From a virus: DNA of 30,557 nucleotides. The position numbers and the translations under genes are program-made. Positions 1,119-30,557 of this stretch are shown here, in pieces. Each line of letters opens with the position of its first letter. Position 1 is the first letter of the stretch. Location of the stretch: IMG/VR virus record IMGVR_UViG_3300007734_000559, positions 1-30,557 of that record; one strand, written 5' to 3'. Below the pieces are notes generated by a model. That model ran no database searches. It saw nothing but the letters and a program-made list of their open reading frames with translations, and was not told where the DNA came from.

Positions 1119-1509
1119 CGGGCTTGCCTGCCTTGGCGGCTGCATCGACAATCACGCGCTCGATGCGCGAGAGCTCGAGCGGCCCGCCGTCCGCGCCCGT
1201 AATCTCGTGACGCTCGGTCTCGCGCCAGCGGGCTTGAGTCTTCAGAAAAAAGATGGCCGATGTCGTGTCGCCGCTCAGAGCCTTTTGAATCAACCCTTGG
1301 GCGACCTTCGCGATAACCTTGCTTTTTCCCCGTTTATACAGTTCGCCAATGCTTGGATCGCGCTCTAGGATTGCAAAGAACGTCGTGCGCCCGATGCCGA
1401 AGTAGTCGGCGACTTGCTCAGCGGAGAGAAACGCCGCGAGCGTCTCGACCTCGCCGCGCTGCTTCTCGGTAAGCGTCTTCGCGGGTCGTCCTGCTTTGCC
1501 GTTGGCCAT
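1108..1509 (-). CDS. terS: Terminase small subunit
   Basis: DNA-recognition subunit that brings concatemeric phage DNA to the large subunit. The 133-aa product starts with a basic segment (GKAGRPAK), followed by a helix-turn-helix around residues 28-50 (SAEQVADYFGIGRTTFFAIL) and a helical segment with QGLIQKALSGD, as in many phage small terminases. ATG 1509 is chosen over the GTG three bases upstream because it forms a TGATG junction with the methyltransferase stop and sits behind a GAGGTGA ribosome-binding site. It lies directly before terL. A generic phage HTH protein is the alternative, but the position next to terL argues for terS. Confidence 0.85.
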   Translation of the reverse strand: MANGKAGRPAKTLTEKQRGEVETLAAFLSAEQVADYFGIGRTTFFAILERDPSIGELYKRGKSKVIAKVAQGLIQKALSGDTTSAIFFLKTQARWRETERHEITGADGGPLELSRIERVIVDAAAKAGKPDGG

Positions 1510-2771
1510 CACGTCACCTCGTCGAAGAGCTTACCATCCGATTCGCGCGTCGCTTGCTTCCCGGTGAACTGCTGCCAGCGCTTCACGATGACGTCGACGT
1601 AGCGCGGGTCAAGCTCCATCAGGCGGGCGATGCGGCCTGTCTTCTCGCAGGCAATGAGCGTCGTTCCGCTGCCGCCGAACGGTTCGAGCACCACGTCGCC
1701 GCGGTCGCTGCTGTTGCCGATGCAGTACTCGACAAGCTCGACGGGCTTCATCGTCGGATGCACACCGTTGCGCGCGGGCTTGTCGAAGTTAAGAGTCGAT
1801 GATTGCTTTCGGTCGCCAGTCCACTTGTGCGCCGCGCCAGATTTCCACCCGTAGAAGATTGCTTCGTGCTGGTAGTGGTAATCCGAGCGTCCGAGCACGA
1901 ACGTTGACTTGACCCATGCGAGCGTATGACGCCACACGTCGAGGTCTTTCAGCACCGTGCCGAAACAGTGGAACAGCGGGACCGCCGGGGCCGCTACATA
2001 CCAAGCGGCGCCCTCCTTGCAGGCTGCGAACGCAGCGCCGAGTGCGGCGCGAAGGAAGTCGGTGAGCTCGTCGTCGTCGAGGTCGTCGTTAACGATGCCG
2101 TGAGCCTCGCGCGGTCGCTTCTTTCCGCCATCCCATTCGCGCAGGAAATCTGTCGATTGCTTCACGCCATACGGCGGGTCCGTCCACACGCAGTCCGCCT
2201 TGACGCCCGCCATCAACTCCTCGACCGCATCGACGCTCGTCGAATCCCCGCACATCACCCGATGCTTCCCGAGGAGCCACACGTCGCCAAGAACGGATCG
2301 CGGCTTTGCCGGAGATTCGGGCACCTCGTCTGGGTCGGTCTTGCCTTCTGGGAGCACCTCGGGCGTCAGCGCGTCGATCTCGTCGCCGTCGAACCCCGTC
2401 AACTTCAAGTCAAACCCAAGCTCCCCGAGCTCCCCGAGCTCGAGTGCGAGAAGCTCGGAGTCCCAGCCGGCATTCATGGCTAGCTTGTTGTCGGCGAGGA
2501 CGTAAGCGCGGGTTTTTGCGTCGGACCATCCCTCGGCGACAATCACGGGCACGTTGACCATGCCGAGCTGGCGAGCTGCGAGGAGCCTGCCGTGCCCCGC
2601 AATCACCCCGCCAGCGGGCGACACGAGCACGGGGGTAGTCCAGCCCCATTCGCGAATCGAAGCCGCAAGCTGCGCCACCTGGGCGTCGGAGTGCGTGCGG
2701 GCGTTGCGAGCGTAGGGCGTGAGGCGCTCGATGGCCCACTGCTGCACCCTGTCGGCGGGGTTCGTTTTCAT
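1509..2771 (-). CDS. ParB-like domain fused to a DNA methyltransferase (N6-adenine or N4-cytosine)
   Basis: Likely modifies phage DNA by S-adenosylmethionine-dependent base methylation, protecting it from host restriction or marking it for packaging. Residues 15-130 form a ParB/sulfiredoxin-type domain with VIAGHGRLLAAR around 57-67. Residues 160-420 form an N6_N4_Mtase domain with the catalytic DPPY at 198-201 preceding the SAM-binding FGGSGTT at 365-371, the beta-class order, plus HPTMKP at 339-344. The 420-aa length fits known phage ParB-methyltransferase fusions. ATG 2771 is chosen because it overlaps the upstream stop as ATGA. No restriction partner is visible, so it looks like an orphan enzyme. 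Target sequence unknown. Confidence 0.9.
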   Translation of the reverse strand: MKTNPADRVQQWAIERLTPYARNARTHSDAQVAQLAASIREWGWTTPVLVSPAGGVIAGHGRLLAARQLGMVNVPVIVAEGWSDAKTRAYVLADNKLAMNAGWDSELLALELGELGELGFDLKLTGFDGDEIDALTPEVLPEGKTDPDEVPESPAKPRSVLGDVWLLGKHRVMCGDSTSVDAVEELMAGVKADCVWTDPPYGVKQSTDFLREWDGGKKRPREAHGIVNDDLDDDELTDFLRAALGAAFAACKEGAAWYVAAPAVPLFHCFGTVLKDLDVWRHTLAWVKSTFVLGRSDYHYQHEAIFYGWKSGAAHKWTGDRKQSSTLNFDKPARNGVHPTMKPVELVEYCIGNSSDRGDVVLEPFGGSGTTLIACEKTGRIARLMELDPRYVDVIVKRWQQFTGKQATRESDGKLFDEVT

Positions 2772-3010
2772 GGGGCCACCCGATACCACGTGCCCTTGGT
2801 TTGGCCCAGGCGCTCGACGAGCCCACGGGCGACCGCCTCTCGGAGCGCGTCATACGTAACCGTGCGCCCCCACCCGAGCGCGGCTCGGATAACGGGCGCA
2901 GTCGCGCGACGTTGCCCCAAGGAGGCTGTTTTGATGACCAGGGCGAGGCGAGCTAGGGCGGCGGGGTCAAAGCCGCCCTTTCGCCCGCTAGGGCGCAGCA
3001 CGGGCTTCAC
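2768..3010 (-). CDS. Small winged-helix DNA-binding protein
   Basis: An 80-aa product read from GTG 3010, which overlaps the preceding stop as GTGA and ends in an ATGA junction with the methyltransferase. The N-terminus is basic (RPSGRKGG). The rest looks like a winged helix-turn-helix: a helix with the segment APVIRAALGW, a recognition-helix-like TVTYDALREAVARGLVER, and a wing ending GTWYRVAP. It could regulate the packaging operon or assist the methyltransferase or terminase. A longer reading from further upstream exists, but it would overlap the 38-aa gene in a very arginine-rich, shadow-like stretch. No specific family recognised. Confidence 0.65.
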   Translation of the reverse strand: MKPVLRPSGRKGGFDPAALARLALVIKTASLGQRRATAPVIRAALGWGRTVTYDALREAVARGLVERLGQTKGTWYRVAP

Positions 3011-15375: not shown

Positions 15376-17229
15376 TCAAGCCTGCGCGAAGACTCGCCAG
15401 TCCAAAAAACTAGGGTCGTACGTGAACAGGTAGTTGCTTGCCCCCGGAACTATCCCCAGCGCGTTAGCCCCCCACGCTGCCGCAGCGGCGAATCCAGTCC
15501 CTCGAATAATCTTACCGGCTACGCCAACGGGGAACGTCCCACGAACGTATGAAGTAGCAATCAGCGCCCCAGAGTTAACGATCGTCCCATCGTTCGTGAA
15601 CGCGGGGTCAGCGCCGTTCTTTTGGTACAGATACCCGTCAAGCGGATTCATCCAAACGCGGAACGCATCGAAGCGCATCACCGGGAAGATGGCGACGGCG
15701 TTCAGCGCGTAAAATCGGAACGCCGACGGCAGAAGAGTCGTGTCGAAGTTCGCGTAACCGGCTCCGAAATCAAACGTCGTCGGGCCGGTGAAAGCCGACG
15801 AGCGGTCGAGGAAAACGAAGCCGCCGTCGGGGAGGATTTGCGTCGTGCCCGCGCTCGCGTCGATCTTCGCGCCGAAGAGCTTCGAGCAGTTGACGATGCG
15901 CGTCCCAGCAGCCGAAGCGGTTAACGCGTAGGCGTCCGAGCCCGTGCAATCAATCGAGCAGCCGTCGATGCTGAGGTCTTCGCAGGCGTTGCCGAAGACG
16001 CCGACGACCGACGCCGAGTTGTTCTGCCCCGCGAAGCTGCACCCTGAAGCAAGGCACTCGCCCGAGATCGACCCGCCGCCGTCGACGGAGAGGTGCCTCG
16101 CCGTAGCATCGGCGACGGTCGTAAAAAGGAAGCAGCCGAAGAGCCGCACCTTGCTCGCGCCGTCGAGGATATTAACATTGTGCACGGCGTTCGAGCGAAG
16201 GCTCGTGCCGGTGACGGTCACATCCTGCGGCGGGATTCCGCCGTTTGCGTCGACGTTCAGTCCGTGGCGGAAGTTGCTCTCAAAGGTGCCGCCCGTGATG
16301 GTCGTAAAGTACGTCTCTTGACCGATGAACACGCCGTCGTAGATGCTCGCGCGCGACCAGATGTCGGTTAGCGAATTGTGCGAGCCGCGCTGGATTTTGA
16401 TGCCGCTGACTTGGCACTGATAAAGCTCAAGCCGCTCGAACATGGATTGCGACGTGTAGTCGCAGAAGATGCCATCACCAGAGCCGACGGTGCCTTGGAT
16501 CGTCAGGTCGCAGACGTGAAGCGAAACGTTATTGAAGAGCAGGTTGCCGATCGACGTGATGCACGGCCCTAGCCCGTAATTGTGAATGATCGCGTTGCCG
16601 CGCCCTGCGCCTCGGAGCGTCTTCGCCCCTGCGCCGTTAGGGATGTCGATCGCTCCGTTCGTCGGCGTGCCGTCGTTCGAGACGCGGTACGCGCCTTCGG
16701 GGAAATACACCTCGTCGGAGGCCGCGATTGCCGCGTTAATCGCCGCGCTCACGTCGATGAGCAGCGTGCCCGCCTTCACGTCGGCAACCTGCGCAACGGT
16801 CATAAAATCGAAGGCCGACACCGACTCTTGCAGCTTGCTCGTGAGCGCGCGCAGCGTTGAGCCGACGCCGCCTTCGATGTACGTCACGCGGTCGGAGGTA
16901 ATCGAGCCCGTCGTCGACGCGAGCGGGATGCGCACCGTCGCGTTCAGCGACGAGAAGACGAGCGTGTTGTCGCTCTGGTGCACCGCGACTGAGAAGTCGT
17001 CCGCGTTGACGTAAAGGCGGCACGCTGACCCCTGGTACTGCGGAAATCCGTTGAGCGTTCGCACCGGCTGCGCGACTGGAATCGTCAGCGCCGCATCGAC
17101 ATAGACGGGAATCTGATTCGTTAACGCGGGAAGGCCCGCCGTGCCGAGGTAGAGGTAGCCCGCATCGAGCGGCTGCCCGTCGCGGTCGTGGAACGTCGGG
17201 AAGGGCTCGGAAACTGAGAATGCGCTCAT
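15376..17229 (-). CDS. Tailspike with P22-like head-binding domain
   Basis: Receptor-binding adhesin of 617 aa. Residues 1-100 match the P22 tailspike N-terminal particle-binding domain: PFPTFHDRDGQPLDAGYLYL, then NQIPVYVDAALTIPV and LNGFPQYQGSACRLYV. Residues about 160-480 show repeating right-handed beta-helix turns with regular N, G and C positions (for example NVSLHVCDLTIQGTVGSG and GGTFESNFRHGLNV). The C-terminal 100 residues are probably the trimerisation cap. Catalytic residues for host polysaccharide cleavage cannot be placed by eye. The ATG overlaps the upstream ejection-protein stop (ATGA). It is the last virion gene before lysis genes. Confidence 0.9.
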   Translation of the reverse strand: MSAFSVSEPFPTFHDRDGQPLDAGYLYLGTAGLPALTNQIPVYVDAALTIPVAQPVRTLNGFPQYQGSACRLYVNADDFSVAVHQSDNTLVFSSLNATVRIPLASTTGSITSDRVTYIEGGVGSTLRALTSKLQESVSAFDFMTVAQVADVKAGTLLIDVSAAINAAIAASDEVYFPEGAYRVSNDGTPTNGAIDIPNGAGAKTLRGAGRGNAIIHNYGLGPCITSIGNLLFNNVSLHVCDLTIQGTVGSGDGIFCDYTSQSMFERLELYQCQVSGIKIQRGSHNSLTDIWSRASIYDGVFIGQETYFTTITGGTFESNFRHGLNVDANGGIPPQDVTVTGTSLRSNAVHNVNILDGASKVRLFGCFLFTTVADATARHLSVDGGGSISGECLASGCSFAGQNNSASVVGVFGNACEDLSIDGCSIDCTGSDAYALTASAAGTRIVNCSKLFGAKIDASAGTTQILPDGGFVFLDRSSAFTGPTTFDFGAGYANFDTTLLPSAFRFYALNAVAIFPVMRFDAFRVWMNPLDGYLYQKNGADPAFTNDGTIVNSGALIATSYVRGTFPVGVAGKIIRGTGFAAAAAWGANALGIVPGASNYLFTYDPSFLDWRVFAQA

Positions 17230-20897: not shown

Positions 20898-21656
20898 TCA
20901 CCCGAGATTAAAGTTCATGCCGGTGACGCCAGCCGCGCCCATGCCAGGCGTGTAGCCGCTACCTGCGGGGCCTGTGGGGCCTGCGGGGCCTGCGGGAGCT
21001 CCTCCACCGAGCGGTCCGCGGCCCATTGCTCCGAGCCCGCCGAGCGTGCCGAGGGCTCCGCCCACGCCGCCGAAGATGTTCGCCATGCCCTGCCCCTGCG
21101 CGAGCGCTGCGCCCGCTGCTGCTTGCCCCTGCGCGCCGTATTGGCCCATGATGCCTTGCGCGCTCTGCTGGCCGAGGCCCGCTGCGCTCATGGCCCCTTG
21201 CTGGCCCGCGCCGGAGATGCCGCCGAGCTGTGCCATCTGCTGCTGGATAAGCTGCGAGAGCATCTGCGGGCGGAACTGCGCAAGCGCTGCTTGCGCGTTG
21301 CCGCCGCGGAGGCCGCCCGTTGCGCTTGCGTTCTGCAAGATGGCCGTCTCGCCTTGCTCGACCATCGCTTGAAACTGCGGACCTTGCTCAATCTGAGCAA
21401 TCGCCGCACGCTGCGCATCGGCCCCGCCGAGCCCTAGCAGCGCTTGCTGCTGGCCTAGCGCGGCTTGCCCCGCTTGCATGTAGGGCGCAAGAAGTCGCTC
21501 TGATTCGGCTTGTTGACGGCGCTGCTCTGCGATTGCGGCTTCGCTCGCCGAACGCTGCGCGCCCGATGCCTCTTCGGATGCGTTCTTCTGCGAGTAATAC
21601 CCGCCAACTGCGGAGATAACGGAGCCACCAATGATGGCAGTTGCAACCCAACCCAT
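20898..21656 (-). CDS. DNA transfer/ejection protein, P22 gp7-like position
   Basis: 252-aa protein with an N-terminal membrane-like helix (VATAIIGGSVISAVGGYYSQ), an Ala/Gln/Glu helix typical of small ejection proteins (EEASGAQRSASEAAIAEQRR), then LLAPYMQAGQAALGQQQALL, EQGPQFQAMVEQGETAILQN and GLRGGNAQAAL, blocks that recur in many podovirus injection proteins. The C-terminus is a glycine-rich, collagen-like GPAGPTGPAGSG segment. ATG 21656 lies in a TGATG junction with the cupin gene. It probably acts with the next two genes in building the injection channel. Confidence 0.8.
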   Translation of the reverse strand: MGWVATAIIGGSVISAVGGYYSQKNASEEASGAQRSASEAAIAEQRRQQAESERLLAPYMQAGQAALGQQQALLGLGGADAQRAAIAQIEQGPQFQAMVEQGETAILQNASATGGLRGGNAQAALAQFRPQMLSQLIQQQMAQLGGISGAGQQGAMSAAGLGQQSAQGIMGQYGAQGQAAAGAALAQGQGMANIFGGVGGALGTLGGLGAMGRGPLGGGAPAGPAGPTGPAGSGYTPGMGAAGVTGMNFNLG

Positions 21657-22111
21657 CACGCACTCCTATCAGATAGTTCATGGACGCGCAGCCGTTCAAG
21701 GAGCGCGTGTGTTTCGTTGTAGGCGTCGCTTTTTTCGACGAGCAGATCTTCAAGCTTGTCGAGGTCGCGCTCTTCGGTCGCGTGGACGTTTTGAAATACG
21801 ATGTCTTCGAGCACGAGCGCAACCTTGCGCCCTGGCGGAGCGATGAAGGTCAGCGGAGCTCGAACGGTCGTGACTCCGTCGGGCGTTGCGATCGTCATGC
21901 TGCCCTTGAGCAAGATGCAAACGTGCTCGGTCTTGTGCTCGTGCCCAATGATGAGCGTGCCGGCTGGCGCTGTCATCTGCCGCACGTAGACGCCGGATGC
22001 GAAGAAGTGATCGATCGGGCAATCAACCTGCGGAAGCGCGAGCATCGCCCCTTCGAGCCGCTCAATCTTGAGCGCGTCGTCTTCGCGCGATGCTTCGGCA
22101 AGAGTCGTCAT
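21656..22111 (-). CDS. Cupin-domain protein, virion operon
   Basis: 151-aa beta-barrel protein with cupin metal-binding histidines: H57/H59 and H63 in GHEHKTEHVCILLKG, then a second motif APPGRKV with H110. A helical extension with acidic residues follows (RDLDKLEDLLVEKSDAYNET). Cupins of this kind recur among podovirus head genes; whether they are structural, assembly factors or enzymes is unsettled. ATGA overlap at the start and TGATG at the stop couple it with its neighbours. Confidence 0.8.
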   Translation of the reverse strand: MTTLAEASREDDALKIERLEGAMLALPQVDCPIDHFFASGVYVRQMTAPAGTLIIGHEHKTEHVCILLKGSMTIATPDGVTTVRAPLTFIAPPGRKVALVLEDIVFQNVHATEERDLDKLEDLLVEKSDAYNETHALLERLRVHELSDRSA

Positions 22112-22482
22112 CCGTCCTCAAATTCTTTCTCTTCCCAAGCCTGGCAGCATCGCAGGTCGTGGCAGCAGAACGAGAACTTCGTGCAGAATCCACGGAAGCC
22201 CGCGCCGTCGTCCCACTGGTTCCACGGGATGCGCTCCATCTTGAGCTGCGTGTCCGGCGTGTTGTCGTAGTACTCGCAATTCGAGCAGCGACGGCGACGA
22301 GCCTCGGCCTCGTCGAGCTGCATCGTCTTCGCGATGGCTCGCCAGTAGTCGGCGTTTGCCCCGCGCTCGTTCGACGGCTGCTCGGGTCCAAGCTGCCAGT
22401 CCTGAATCACCATGAGCGTGTTTTTCTTGTTCTCGCTCGTCGACGGGAACGGCTTTTCGATAGGGATTCCGAGCATCATCAT
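22108..22482 (-). CDS. Cysteine-rich virion-operon protein with HiPIP-like motif, 124 aa
   Basis: ATG 22482 overlaps the upstream stop (ATGA); three tandem ATG codons begin the gene. The C-terminal half carries C66/C69 in RCSNCEYYD, C100 in GFCTKF, C106/C107 and C112/C113 in RCCQAWEE. The order C-x2-C-x-Y, C-x2-F, C-x2-W resembles high-potential iron-sulfur proteins; a zinc site is the alternative. Similar small proteins are found among podovirus structural genes, role unknown. A smaller cousin of this pattern is encoded at 11768-11962. Confidence 0.75.
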   Translation of the reverse strand: MMMLGIPIEKPFPSTSENKKNTLMVIQDWQLGPEQPSNERGANADYWRAIAKTMQLDEAEARRRRCSNCEYYDNTPDTQLKMERIPWNQWDDGAGFRGFCTKFSFCCHDLRCCQAWEEKEFEDG

Positions 22483-22799
22483 GTGATTTGTACTCCGTTG
22501 GACGAGCCGAAGAGCGCAGCCGCGGCGCTGCACTCGTAGCGAATAATTTCCCCAGGAGCGAGCAGCGCGCCGATAACCTCGGGGCAGAGGTACGTCTCGC
22601 CGGGGAGGATGGTTTGCGCGATGATGATCGGCGACGACGCCGCCGAGCCAAGGCGCACGGTCAGCGTCACGTTCGCCGCGCTCTGGTTCGCGAAGGCCAT
22701 GTAGTCGATGCGCGTCTTCGCGTCCGTCGACGTGTAGGCGGTCGTTGCTGCATTCGGAACGAACGCCGGGGGGATGAGTTGCGAGGGCGTGACGGCCAT
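22479..22799 (-). CDS. Hypothetical structural protein, 106 aa
   Basis: A small beta-rich protein (NVTLTVRLGSAASSPIIIAQ, then PGETYLCPEVIG and GEIIRYECSAAAALF) of the kind often found as jelly-roll-like accessory virion proteins. Its layout is close to that of the 103-aa protein at 27247-27558 (shared pattern of an N-terminal arm, a strand with ET, and an LxPG turn), so the two may be distant relatives. TAATG junction upstream, ATGA downstream. No enzymatic motif. Confidence 0.7.
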   Translation of the reverse strand: MAVTPSQLIPPAFVPNAATTAYTSTDAKTRIDYMAFANQSAANVTLTVRLGSAASSPIIIAQTILPGETYLCPEVIGALLAPGEIIRYECSAAAALFGSSNGVQIT

Positions 22800-23710
22800 T
22801 AGACTTCCTGCGTGACGGTGAGAATAACCGAGGGGATTGCCGGGACGACGCCCGCGGATGGGAAAGTTGTAATCTGAAGAGCCACGTTGCTCACGGCGTA
22901 GACGAGCTCAAAATATTCGCCGGGGGCCAAACGTAGCACCCAATTCCACGCCGCGACGAGCTCCGCGTTGTTGCCCTGGATGCGCACCTGCGACGCAGAA
23001 TCGGGCACGTCGACGCCTGAGACGCGAGGCCACAGCCAGATGATGTGCGCGGGGGCTGTTGTGTTGTCGAGCTGCGCCGAAAATTGGAAGTTAAAAATGC
23101 CCGCGTCGGCGACGTAGACCCGCGACGTGTTCACGGGGTCGCGCCAGATGCCGCGCTCGATGTCCACCACGTCGAGGTCGATCGGATAATCCACGTTTGG
23201 GAGCAGCGCGACTTGAGTCACGAGCGAGGCGAACGCCCCGACGCCGACGCGCTTCGCGGGCACGACGGGAGGGGCCGTTGCTGGGTCCAGGTGGCCGCTT
23301 AACGCGCTTCGCGCAGCTTGGGCGACGGCTAGGGCGTTCGAGGCTTCAGCCGCCGCTGGGTCCAGGTGGCCGCTTAACGCGCTTCGCGCAGCTTGGGCGA
23401 CGGCTAGGGCGTTCGAGGCTTCAGCCGCCGCTGGGTCCAGGTGGCCGCTTAACGCGCTTTGCGCAGCTTGGGCGATGGCTAGGGCGTTCGAGGCTTCAGC
23501 CGCCGCGTCTTGGGCAAGCTGCGCGACTACGCCTGCGAGAGAGTTGACGTTTGCGAGCGCCGCGCCTGCGTCGAAGGCCACCGAATCAAGGCCCGTCGTC
23601 TTGACATCCTCGACCGTCGAAAAGAGCAATTCAAATTGCTTGATCTGCTCGTGCTCGGTGAGGAACTTTGCGAGCTGGTCACGGGTAAGGCCGAGGCGCT
23701 TGACGGCCAT
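22799..23710 (-). CDS. Candidate tail needle with alanine-rich repeats and jelly-roll knob
   Basis: 303-aa protein in three parts: an N-terminal helix LGLTRDQLAKFLTEHEQIKQFELLF (split here: KFLTEHEQIKQFELLF at 15-30), an alanine-rich helical stalk with three 25-residue tandem repeats (69-143, unit AEASNALAVAQAARSALSGH plus LDPAA), and a C-terminal beta domain (about 155-303) with FNFQFSAQLDN, IIWLWPRVSGVDVPDSAS and APGEYFELVYA, the style of phage C1q/TNF-like knobs. It directly follows the gp10-like gene, the place of the gp26 needle in P22, and Sf6-type needles carry such a knob. ATG 23710 is in a TGATG junction. A fibre is the alternative. Confidence 0.65.
   Translation of the reverse strand: MAVKRLGLTRDQLAKFLTEHEQIKQFELLFSTVEDVKTTGLDSVAFDAGAALANVNSLAGVVAQLAQDAAAEASNALAIAQAAQSALSGHLDPAAAEASNALAVAQAARSALSGHLDPAAAEASNALAVAQAARSALSGHLDPATAPPVVPAKRVGVGAFASLVTQVALLPNVDYPIDLDVVDIERGIWRDPVNTSRVYVADAGIFNFQFSAQLDNTTAPAHIIWLWPRVSGVDVPDSASQVRIQGNNAELVAAWNWVLRLAPGEYFELVYAVSNVALQITTFPSAGVVPAIPSVILTVTQEV
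23280..23504 (-). repeat. Three tandem 75-bp repeats within the needle-candidate gene
   Basis: Units at 23280-23354, 23355-23429 and 23430-23504. The first two appear identical; the third differs at two positions (cttcg to ctttg, gacgg to gatgg). Each unit encodes 25 residues in frame. Near-identity at DNA level implies recent amplification or gene conversion. Confidence 0.95.
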
Positions 23711-25113
23711 CACCAAGCCAGCGGTTCAAGGGTTGCTTCAAGGCTCGCGATCGGCAGATGCGCGGACGAGTCGCCGCGGAAGCGCTGGATGCGGAAGCGC
23801 CGCATCGAGCCCTGGCGACGCCACGCGATGCGGTGCTGCCGAGAGCCGAAGGCCCCGACGCGCACCGTCTGGTCGGTCGACCACGAGAGGCCGTCAAGGC
23901 TGTAGCTCGTCGAGATGAGCGGATTCTCGCCGAATGGCACGGAGCCAGGGAGCGCGACGAGTTCGAGCTCGTGGAAGATGACGCCGTTGCCTTCGGCGAA
24001 CGCGATCGGCGTCGTCAGCTCCCATCGCACGCGCTCGCCCCAATGCGTCGAGGTCGTCTGCTCGCAGTGGCCGAACGACGAGCTTGCAGGGTCGCCGACG
24101 CACCATCGGTCGTAGGCCCAAACGAAGTTGCGCGCGCGGTACTGCGCGAAGCCCTGGAGCGTGCTCACGAGCACGAACCACACGAACGAGCCGAGGGCCT
24201 TTGAGGCGTTGCCGTCGAAGACCAGCGTGCGGTCCGGGAGATGCACGTAAAGCAGCGCGTGTGCCCTATCGTTGCGGGCTTCGAACTTCACGCCTGCAAG
24301 CTGCGCTTCGGTGTAGGTCGCAAGGATTTGATCAATCTCGCGCGTCGAAATCTTGTTCGCCTGCGCGTTCAGCCCGACGAAGATTTCAGGGGCTTCGTTT
24401 CTGCCGCCGCCGAGGAAGGCGATTTGTTCCTGATACGCGCAGCACGCGAAGGTGCCGACGCAGCCTTTCATGATTTGCGCGCCCTCGATGCGCTGAAACG
24501 GGAAGCCGATGCCGCCCACGTTGTCGAAGAATTCAATCGTGTTCCGGTTAATCGCAGCGACTTCGTTTCGCATCTTCACGAGCGCGACGATGGGATCGGG
24601 GTCTGCTTCGCTGCTCGCGTACTTTAGCGGCAAGACAACAAACGGGTTATTGAGCTCGGTGACGATGAGGAACTCGCCGTCGGTCGTCATGAAGTAGCCG
24701 TCGACCCAGCAGAAATCCACAACGGTTCCGAGGTCGGGATCGACGACCTGCTGAAGCAAAGCTCCGGTGAGGTAGTAGAGTCGACCGCCGCTCGCGATGG
24801 CGAGGCGGTCGAACGAATAGTCAAACGTTACGAGCCCACCAGGGCCAACGTCGCCGAAGTCTTGCACGAGCCCCGTTGGGTCAATGTGCACGAGCCGCGA
24901 GCCCATCACGCGATAGAGCAATCCGTTCCAATTGATGCCGCCGCGGTCGGTGCCGGGGCCTACGCCGTCGCTCACGATGCCGTCGCCGGGGCGCAGGTAC
25001 GCATTCGAGATGCCCGTCGCCATCGGCACAGGGACCAAGTTCACCGGGTACGCCGTGCGAAAGTCGGGCGTCGTCGTGGCGTAGATGCCTGAGAGGAGCG
25101 GGATTGACGGCAT
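23710..25113 (-). CDS. P22 gp10-like packaged-DNA stabilisation / tail hub protein
   Basis: 467 aa, close to the 472 aa of P22 gp10, the tail component that closes the portal after packaging. Recognisable features: the N-terminus MPSIPLLSGIYATTTPDFRT with PVNLVPVP, then repeated beta-blade-like strands (RLAIASGGRLYYLTG, FCWVDGYFMTTDGEFLI, EQIAFLGGGRNEAPEIFVG) and a C-terminal WRRQGSMRRFRIQRFRGDS. ATG 25113 is chosen because this is the conserved start; upstream codons are arginine/proline-rich. It sits between gp4-like and needle-candidate genes, as in P22. Confidence 0.88.
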   Translation of the reverse strand: MPSIPLLSGIYATTTPDFRTAYPVNLVPVPMATGISNAYLRPGDGIVSDGVGPGTDRGGINWNGLLYRVMGSRLVHIDPTGLVQDFGDVGPGGLVTFDYSFDRLAIASGGRLYYLTGALLQQVVDPDLGTVVDFCWVDGYFMTTDGEFLIVTELNNPFVVLPLKYASSEADPDPIVALVKMRNEVAAINRNTIEFFDNVGGIGFPFQRIEGAQIMKGCVGTFACCAYQEQIAFLGGGRNEAPEIFVGLNAQANKISTREIDQILATYTEAQLAGVKFEARNDRAHALLYVHLPDRTLVFDGNASKALGSFVWFVLVSTLQGFAQYRARNFVWAYDRWCVGDPASSSFGHCEQTTSTHWGERVRWELTTPIAFAEGNGVIFHELELVALPGSVPFGENPLISTSYSLDGLSWSTDQTVRVGAFGSRQHRIAWRRQGSMRRFRIQRFRGDSSAHLPIASLEATLEPLAW

Positions 25114-28403: not shown

Positions 28404-28886
28404 TTAATCGTAATCGATCGGCGCGTCGTTACCGGCGAGCAGCGGCGCAACGGGGTCGCGCAAGAATGGCCCGCCCTGCCAGCACCACGGCTTGTTGCCC
28501 GCGCCTGCGGGGAGCGTGCCCGGGAACTGCTGGTCGTTCGGCATCGCGGCGCGCACGAGAATTGTGGCGTAGCTTCCGCGTGCGGTCGCCATCGTCGCGG
28601 GCAAGACCTGCTTGCCATAACTCGGGGCGATGCGGCACGCGAGGTTCGTCACGATCGCTTCGTTCGCGCGGTCGGGCACGGATGTCTGCGTGTCGAGGTC
28701 GCTTTGCTGAGGCGAGAGCGGCAGCGGATAGCCGAGGCGAATGCCGCGCTCGTTCCACTCGGCCATCATGCCGTCGAGGCGGCGAAGGGCCGTCTGGAGG
28801 TCTTGAGGCGTCGAGTTGAACACGTAGTCGGCGAGGCCGATTTCCGTCAGCGCCGCTTCGATGTACTGCCGCTTTGTGTAGCCCAT
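28404..28886 (-). CDS. P22 gp4-like tail accessory factor
   Basis: 160-aa (P22 gp4 is 166 aa) protein that binds the portal ring after DNA packaging and links it to the tail. The sequence MGYTKRQYIEAALTEIGLAD, YVFNSTPQDLQTALRRLDGM and MAEWNERGIRLGYPLPLSPQ is typical of this family, followed by VPDRANEAIVTNLACRIAPSYGK (split as RANEAIVTNLACRIAPSYGK). In P22 a muramidase activity has been reported for gp4; no such site is claimed here. Location downstream of coat and upstream of gp10-like agrees with P22 order. Confidence 0.88.
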   Translation of the reverse strand: MGYTKRQYIEAALTEIGLADYVFNSTPQDLQTALRRLDGMMAEWNERGIRLGYPLPLSPQQSDLDTQTSVPDRANEAIVTNLACRIAPSYGKQVLPATMATARGSYATILVRAAMPNDQQFPGTLPAGAGNKPWCWQGGPFLRDPVAPLLAGNDAPIDYD

Positions 28887-29385: not shown

Positions 29386-30557
29386 TCACTGGTCGAAGAG
29401 CAGAATTCCCGCCATCTCAGGGTTCAGCATCGCGGTGCCGAAGAGCACGTCGACGCGGTACTGAGTCAGGCTCGACGCGATGTCGAATTGCTTCTGCATC
29501 ACCACTTCGATGCCCTGGTCGGTCGTTGCGCGCATCACGGCGACGCCTGCATTCTCCGGGATCGCGAGGCGACCTGGGAGCAGTTCAATCGCCGACTTGT
29601 GCCAGAAGCAGTTGTAATCGGCGGTCGTCGTGTTGAGGAAGACAATCGCTTGAGCAGCTCCGCCGGCACCAGAGCGTTCGCAGTTTTGATACTGAATCTC
29701 GGACTGCGTAGGCGCGTTGGCTGCGCTGATGATTGGCGGCGTAATGACGATCGTGTTCGCAGCGCCGACGGAGACGACGCGGAAGGTTTTAAGCTGCCCG
29801 GTCGACTGCTTGGTGATGAGATGCACCGAGTCGATGCCCGCGATCGTGAAGGCGTCGCCAGCCGCCACGCCAACGTTGCTTGAAAGCGTGATCGTTTGAA
29901 AGCGATTGTCCACGTTGAGGATGCCGGCGACGCCGGTATTCGTAGCAAGCGGGACGTAGTTAACGTTGCCGCCTGCGTCGAGCGTCGAGACGGTGAGGGC
30001 CACGCCCGCAGCGGCGGTCTTGCGCAGCGCGTAGTCTTGCTTGTACGTGTCGAAGGACGAAACCATGCCGACGTAGGCGCGCTCAAACGCCTTGTCAGAG
30101 CGGTTGTTCGTGCCGAAAGAGCGCGTCGTTCCGACGACGTTGCCCGCAAGGCCGTTGTAGCTCCGCGAGGAGAGCGAGAGATAGCGCGAGTCGCTCGCAA
30201 CGCCCGTCTCGTTCATGATCGAATCGCAGAGCGCAATGTCGTCGAAGGAACCGGCGGGCGTGCCGGTCGTCACGACGAGCGAGCCGAGGGCGGTCGCCGT
30301 CGACATCACCGCGACGTTGATGTCGGATGCAAGCTTTTGATTCGCGCCTTGAGCGAGACGACCCTCTTGCAGCGCGTCGCGCAGCTCAACGGACGTCATG
30401 CCCCACGCCACGGTCTTAAGGTTCGTGATCGACGCAGGGCACGTGAGCTGGGTCTTATCGCCGAACGTGATCGGGGACCCGGGCACGCTCGTTACGCTTG
30501 GCATGATGTACGGCTGCGGACGCCAGATGGTGCCGTAGTTAGGCGAGACGCTCGACG
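29386..30557 (-). CDS. Major capsid (coat) protein, P22 gp5-like (partial, N-terminus beyond window edge)
   Basis: Capsid subunit. The frame is open to the right edge; the ATG at 30504 is internal, since upstream in-frame codons give SVSPNYGTIWRPQPYI, matching the early NTIW segment of P22 coat. Further matches are ALQEGRLAQGANQKLASDIN with STATALGSLVVT, and ILNVDNRFQTITLSSNVGVA with AGDAFTIAGIDSVHLITK, the latter like P22 residues near the insertion domain. The C-terminus is VDVLFGTAMLNPEMAGILLF. P22 gp5 is 430 aa; 389 residues are seen here, so a few tens are missing. Scaffold and portal should lie just upstream, outside the window. Confidence 0.9.
   Translation of the reverse strand, partial: SSVSPNYGTIWRPQPYIMPSVTSVPGSPITFGDKTQLTCPASITNLKTVAWGMTSVELRDALQEGRLAQGANQKLASDINVAVMSTATALGSLVVTTGTPAGSFDDIALCDSIMNETGVASDSRYLSLSSRSYNGLAGNVVGTTRSFGTNNRSDKAFERAYVGMVSSFDTYKQDYALRKTAAAGVALTVSTLDAGGNVNYVPLATNTGVAGILNVDNRFQTITLSSNVGVAAGDAFTIAGIDSVHLITKQSTGQLKTFRVVSVGAANTIVITPPIISAANAPTQSEIQYQNCERSGAGGAAQAIVFLNTTTADYNCFWHKSAIELLPGRLAIPENAGVAVMRATTDQGIEVVMQKQFDIASSLTQYRVDVLFGTAMLNPEMAGILLFDQ

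Follow-up and report, generated by a model that had tools for sequence, protein, structure and literature searches.

The first breach of the outer membrane is generally ascribed to tail needles, and the reasons for their natural differences in length are, to our knowledge, not understood. P22-like needles contain 11 to 16 heptads, measure 220-320 Å, and combine a conserved anchor with variable, swappable tips that include a TNF-like knob (PMC3741392). The Sf6/HS1 needle stalks differ in length, with 11 versus 16 heptads (PMC3741392). The P22 needle protein gp26 (phrog_1219) is encoded directly after gp10 and before gp7, and comprises an N-terminal virion-binding region, a helical stalk, and a variable tip. 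In the short-tailed Kuravirus SU10, the needle gp18 is a three-chain coiled coil within the nozzle, and the gp18 gene is numbered beside the nozzle gene (PMC9509320). The short tail fibres of SU10 also bind the nozzle, and the fibre and nozzle gene numbers are adjacent (gp16, gp17; PMC9509320). A literature search on 25-residue phage stalk repeats or tandem repeats in needles returned no relevant paper.

We analyzed a 30,557-base IMG/VR virus record (the window). A preliminary description of this DNA had proposed a gp26-type tail needle whose helical stalk is growing by 75-bp tandem repeats.

Results

The candidate gene (22799-23710, minus strand) encodes a needle-like tail protein of 303 amino acids with an N-terminal anchor motif, a predicted helical stalk, and a C1q-like knob. 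Its ATG overlaps the stop codon of the preceding gene (TGATG). The preliminary description had placed it just after a gp10-like gene. This neighbor (23710-25113, minus strand; inferred start MPSIPLL) was identified as a gp10-like head closure/tail nozzle protein (Hc3, Phage_stabilise) by PF11134 (E = 2.6e-30) and phrog_578 (E = 1.2e-89). The surrounding genes, all on the minus strand, run from a P22-type coat protein (29386-30504; PF11651, E = 9.6e-64) and a gp4-like tail accessory factor (28404-28886; PF11650, E = 9.1e-16) through gp10 and the candidate to a small, beta-rich-looking protein directly downstream without a Pfam match (22479-22799). These are followed by a gp7-like DNA ejection protein (20898-21659; phrog_598, E = 1e-32; PF25688, E = 2.8e-4), ejection genes, and a separate beta-helix tailspike candidate of 617 amino acids (15376-17229; PF12708, pectate-lyase-like, E = 7.6e-6, just under the curated cut-off; no PHROG matches). 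This order parallels that of P22 and Sf6, whose needle gene comes after gp10. The record stops inside the morphogenesis cluster, and no portal, scaffold, or terminase was identified among the genes searched in it. The interval from gp10 to gp7, where a needle gene belongs, is complete, and profile searches of the record revealed no other needle candidate there.

Several other features of the window were recorded. The C-terminal end of the gp7-like protein contains a short collagen-like Gly-Pro-Ala stretch, encoded by a 9-bp repeat of 3.9 copies (20962-20996). For the gene at 21656-22111 (minus strand), PHROG assigned phrog_12032 at E = 1.8e-39 ("short tail fiber protein"), yet its Pfam matches are only weak and cupin-like; the label may be wrong. 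The gene at 1509-2789 (minus strand) joins a ParB-like domain and a DNA methyltransferase in one protein (phrog_498, E = 2.9e-152). Rfam and tRNA scans found nothing, and a plasmid search gave no match.

The candidate protein had no significant match in PHROG, Pfam, or NCBIfam, and neither its sequence nor its profile found a match among PDB sequences. The window record also yielded no match to the gp26-type needle families phrog_1219 and phrog_1030; these searches gave no different gp26 homologue that would compete for the role. Alignment of the candidate to P22 gp26 and Sf6 gp9 using hhalign returned E values of 0.94 and 0.34, with a probability of about 0. The gp26-type assignment therefore stands for the gp10-adjacent position, helical stalk, and knob, but not for homology to gp26. 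Judged by its sequence, the candidate does not belong to the gp26 family; at most it is an analogue in position and architecture.

The candidate shares with P22 gp26 its place between gp10 and gp7 and its three-part layout, but its N-terminal motif differs, and comparisons of sequence and profile detected no similarity. Descriptions of P22 needle shafts give heptad repeats, whereas the increment of the candidate family is 25 residues, and the stalk of single-unit family members is much shorter than that of the P22 needle. Like the Sf6/HS1 needles (phrog_1030), the candidate has a predicted helical stalk with a TNF-like knob at its end, and stalk length varies naturally in both groups; however, knob and anchor are unrelated to theirs in sequence, and the Sf6 knob falls outside the best 50 structural matches. 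SU10 gp18, compared by description, ends in a beta-prism rather than the C1q fold predicted here.

The anchor motif spans residues 1-34 (MAVKRLGLTRDQLAKFLTEHEQIKQFELLFSTVE; 23609-23710, minus strand), and alignments gave the consensus RxxLTRxQLAxFL..IrxFExLF. We scanned IMG/VR by protein alignment with the N-terminal 45 residues only, leaving out the knob, and recovered 80 loci. In every one (80/80), the end of gp10 and the motif were no more than about 30 nt apart. When all loci were pooled and redundancy was removed, gp10 ended ≤60 nt upstream of the anchor in 192/192 evaluable distinct loci; two further distinct anchors lie at contig edges, outside the evaluable set. The C termini of the 80 loci were more varied: 43 carry the C1q-like knob, 26 carry other tips, and 11 are cut off. 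Among its other tips, the pooled set contains an S74 chaperone fibre (Peptidase_S74, locus L181) and tail-fibre-like sequence matching tail fiber PHROGs (L226). Such fibre-type modules occur in some relatives and are absent from the window protein. Among loci encoding the knob, gp10 was just upstream in 98 of 109 evaluable cases and the small downstream protein was present in 102 of 115. Of the knob proteins examined, those lacking the anchor motif lay mostly away from gp10. The anchor is nearly absent from cultured phages: convincing matches among 50,697 records were limited to MW202867 and MW202475, metagenome-derived circular genomes in which a fibre or a pectate-lyase-type tailspike is encoded by a gene of its own. 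A conserved anchor with a variable tip corresponds to the P22-like needle organization, but nozzle-docked fibres would look alike.

Two observations concern other proteins recovered in these scans. A mid-protein domain of about 150 amino acids (...GQE..Y...NGTVV...GDILY.SPT..G..T...P.AP...) lies between stalk and tip in L112, L142-L163, and others; the proteins tested gave weak family matches only. L123 and L124, from Cytophagaceae MAGs, encode C1q-knob proteins with 207-bp tandem repeats in 2-3 copies. This is a different stalk unit, and these knob proteins are not gp10-linked.

Tandem Repeats Finder (TRF) detected a 75-bp repeat of 3.0 copies at 23280-23506, with a 98% match and a score of 440; no other tandem array in the window came close to it in strength. 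Unit 1 (AAAEASNALAIAQAAQSALSGHLDP; 23432-23506, minus strand) encodes residues 69-93, unit 2 (AAAEASNALAVAQAARSALSGHLDP; 23357-23431, minus strand) residues 94-118, and unit 3, which has the same sequence as unit 2 (AAAEASNALAVAQAARSALSGHLDP; 23282-23356, minus strand), residues 119-143. Units 2 and 3 are identical at 75/75 nt. Unit 1 differs from them by two bases, both nonsynonymous (I/V and Q/R), with 0 synonymous differences. The array thus agrees with the preliminary description of three almost identical units adding 25 residues each. Identical codons over 225 nt ruled out chance or convergent Ala-rich coding as its origin. An antisense open reading frame across the repeat (23197-23547, plus strand) is mechanical and has no Pfam match.

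We then compared unit number across relatives, a check that the preliminary description had proposed. Each of 30 full-length close relatives from IMG/VR contains one unit, and a stalk-directed scan pooled with the earlier loci gave 30 distinct stalks of the clade besides that of the window, again single-unit in 30/30. A search of IMG/VR for the exact unit junction found no other multi-unit copies. Growth of the stalk by 75-bp units is therefore recent and private to the window record. The closest single-unit relatives, L005 and L006, differ from the window by 6-11% at the nucleotide level outside the repeat, compared with 0-2 differences per 75 nt between units, which makes the expansion much younger than that split. 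In outgroups, the I/V codon is mostly ATC and the Q/R codon mostly CGG, AAG, or AAA. Given these codons, the simplest history, which is weakly supported, would start with a duplication, after which each copy acquired a private substitution and the GTC/CGA copy was duplicated in turn; a triplication in one event plus an additional substitution costs just one more step.

The 25-residue step extends beyond the window. The strongest self-similarity offset in 80 non-redundant stalks was 25 residues, also when the window was excluded, and among 45 more strictly filtered stalks it was the top offset in 13, with 28 next best in 5. Because related sequences inflate such statistics, direct ladder and spacing evidence carries more weight. 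One clade with the same flanks has stalk lengths of 67, 92, and 117 residues, corresponding to DNA spans of 279, 354, and 429 nt, that is, 75-nt steps. A second set has lengths of 45, 70, and 95, whereas a few members whose linkers differ have lengths outside the ladders (78, 81, 91). When successive units were recognized by motif with spacings of 18-32 allowed, exactly 25 was found in 15/15 distinct spacings; L226 has about seven units by eye. The window unit is therefore the family's own increment rather than an odd length. Across the wider family, these sequences indicate that the unit has been gained or lost repeatedly and that stalk length changes in whole steps, with dozens of related phages differing by steps of this size.

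We modeled the candidate as a single chain using AlphaFold with a 44-sequence alignment. Helices were predicted at residues 48-88, 94-112, and 118-138, with a break after each, followed by a beta knob at residues 155-303. The first helix (23447-23569, minus strand) is the putative ancestral stalk helix, equivalent to residues 44-84 in single-unit L005, for which the model has that one helix followed by a loop and the same knob. Single-unit members would thus have a short stalk of one ~41-residue helix, about 60 Å long. Each extra unit in the window protein is modeled as a ~20-residue helix and a short break at SGHLD, just before Pro. The helical stalk of the preliminary description is reproduced in these models at pLDDT 50-70.

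The knob (22802-23248, minus strand), modeled at pLDDT mostly >90, is predicted to be a TNF/C1q-like jelly roll. Foldseek matched it in the PDB (E = 4e-8 to 2e-6; TMt up to 0.79 with C1q domains) to TNF/C1q domains, including 4-1BBL, BxpB, BclA, Caprin-2, and C1QL3, and to the phi812 central spike knob. It also resembles many C-terminal knobs of uncultured Caudovirales proteins. The C1q-like knob proposed earlier is thus borne out at the level of the predicted fold, one that is typical of trimers.

The preliminary description had also argued that 25 residues equal 11+7+7, so that a coiled coil could stay in register. This arithmetic is compatible with a stutter-containing coiled coil. However, the G and P in each unit and the predicted breaks at SGHLD(P) leave a continuous in-register coiled coil unsupported in the window protein, and the k=7 harmonic of hydrophobicity in its unit was reached by 31% of shuffles, which is not significant. 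In the family profile, the largest harmonic was 7 turns per 25 residues, reached by 7.7% of shuffles; relatives whose units lack G and P may maintain a continuous register. A hydrophobic-moment test on three concatenated units was rejected as independent coiled-coil evidence, since any sequence with a period of 25 gathers power in the harmonics of that period; the per-unit test given above took its place.

Discussion

We lean towards the candidate being the needle that forms the central plug of the tail in a short-tailed phage of P22 type, with a gp10-docked, modular stalk of 25-residue units that recently grew from one unit to three. The short N-terminal motif would dock the needle to the gp10 nozzle, the helical stalk would project out of the nozzle, and the C1q/TNF-like knob would form the tip of what is presumably a homotrimer. 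Two recent duplications of the last stalk unit would have placed two extra helices, each after a short break, behind the ancestral helix of the stalk and ahead of the knob, which could give the needle a longer reach or more hinges. A needle-like function follows if position, anchor, stalk, and knob mean here what they mean in P22. Against it, sequence and profile comparisons relate the candidate to neither P22 gp26 nor the Sf6 needle, the stalk of single-unit members is far shorter than that of P22, some family members have tail-fibre-like tips, and the predicted helices are of only moderate confidence.

It is quite possible, if somewhat short of probable, that the unit gain is a neutral product of slippage, with extra helices that fold back or form floppy links and leave reach unchanged. 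This explanation concerns the effect of the repeats and not the identity of the protein, and it can coexist with a needle. The SGHLDP in each unit, where the model breaks, and the lack of a significant coiled-coil period in the window unit are what it would predict. The repeated gain and loss of exact units, with frame and flanks intact, suggests instead that 25-residue steps are tolerated or preferred, without implying a benefit.

The main rival to the needle role is a peripheral tail fibre, present in several copies per tail and docked on gp10 by the same N-terminal motif, in which the repeats would lengthen a receptor-binding fibre. The SU10 short tail fibres offer a precedent for nozzle binding and gene adjacency, C1q-like knobs also end many phage fibres, and the fibre-like C termini of L181 and L226 and the long repetitive C termini of L192 and L218 sit on the same anchor. 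We nevertheless consider this rather unlikely, since the window and the complete relatives MW202867 and MW202475 have a separate beta-helix tailspike or tail fibre, and the candidate occupies the exact P22/Sf6 needle position with no competing candidate found between gp10 and gp7. A central needle remains the preferred role.

Very improbably, the array of three units reflects a misassembly or a minority variant of a single-unit gene, as its absence from the 30 other clade members and from IMG/VR junctions outside this metagenome contig might suggest. Tandem repeats tend to be collapsed, not created, by short-read assembly; unit 1 is distinguishable by its two private differences; and independent assemblies across the family repeatedly show gain or loss of exactly 25 residues.

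The earlier needle idea was right in outline, in position, predicted helical stalk, knob, and growth by units, and was not supported as to gp26 homology and an in-register coiled coil. The changes in needle length and perhaps in envelope penetration that it expected from copy number may follow. What goes beyond it is that 25 residues is a family-wide stalk increment, and the wider finding would be a gp10-linked, modular, needle-like family with a quantized stalk. More tentatively, this may be a large, essentially uncultivated, gp10-coupled needle family, unrelated to gp26 in sequence, whose length evolves around a fixed 25-residue quantum by 75-bp gain and loss under selection for reach across different envelopes, with the window showing the process in progress. 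The gp10-linked anchor signature provides a way to find needle-like proteins in metagenomic P22-type phages; in the window record, gp26-type models find nothing. The exact 25-residue stalk steps, the fresh expansion at the DNA level, and the one-unit controls together form a natural length series for testing the effect of needle length.
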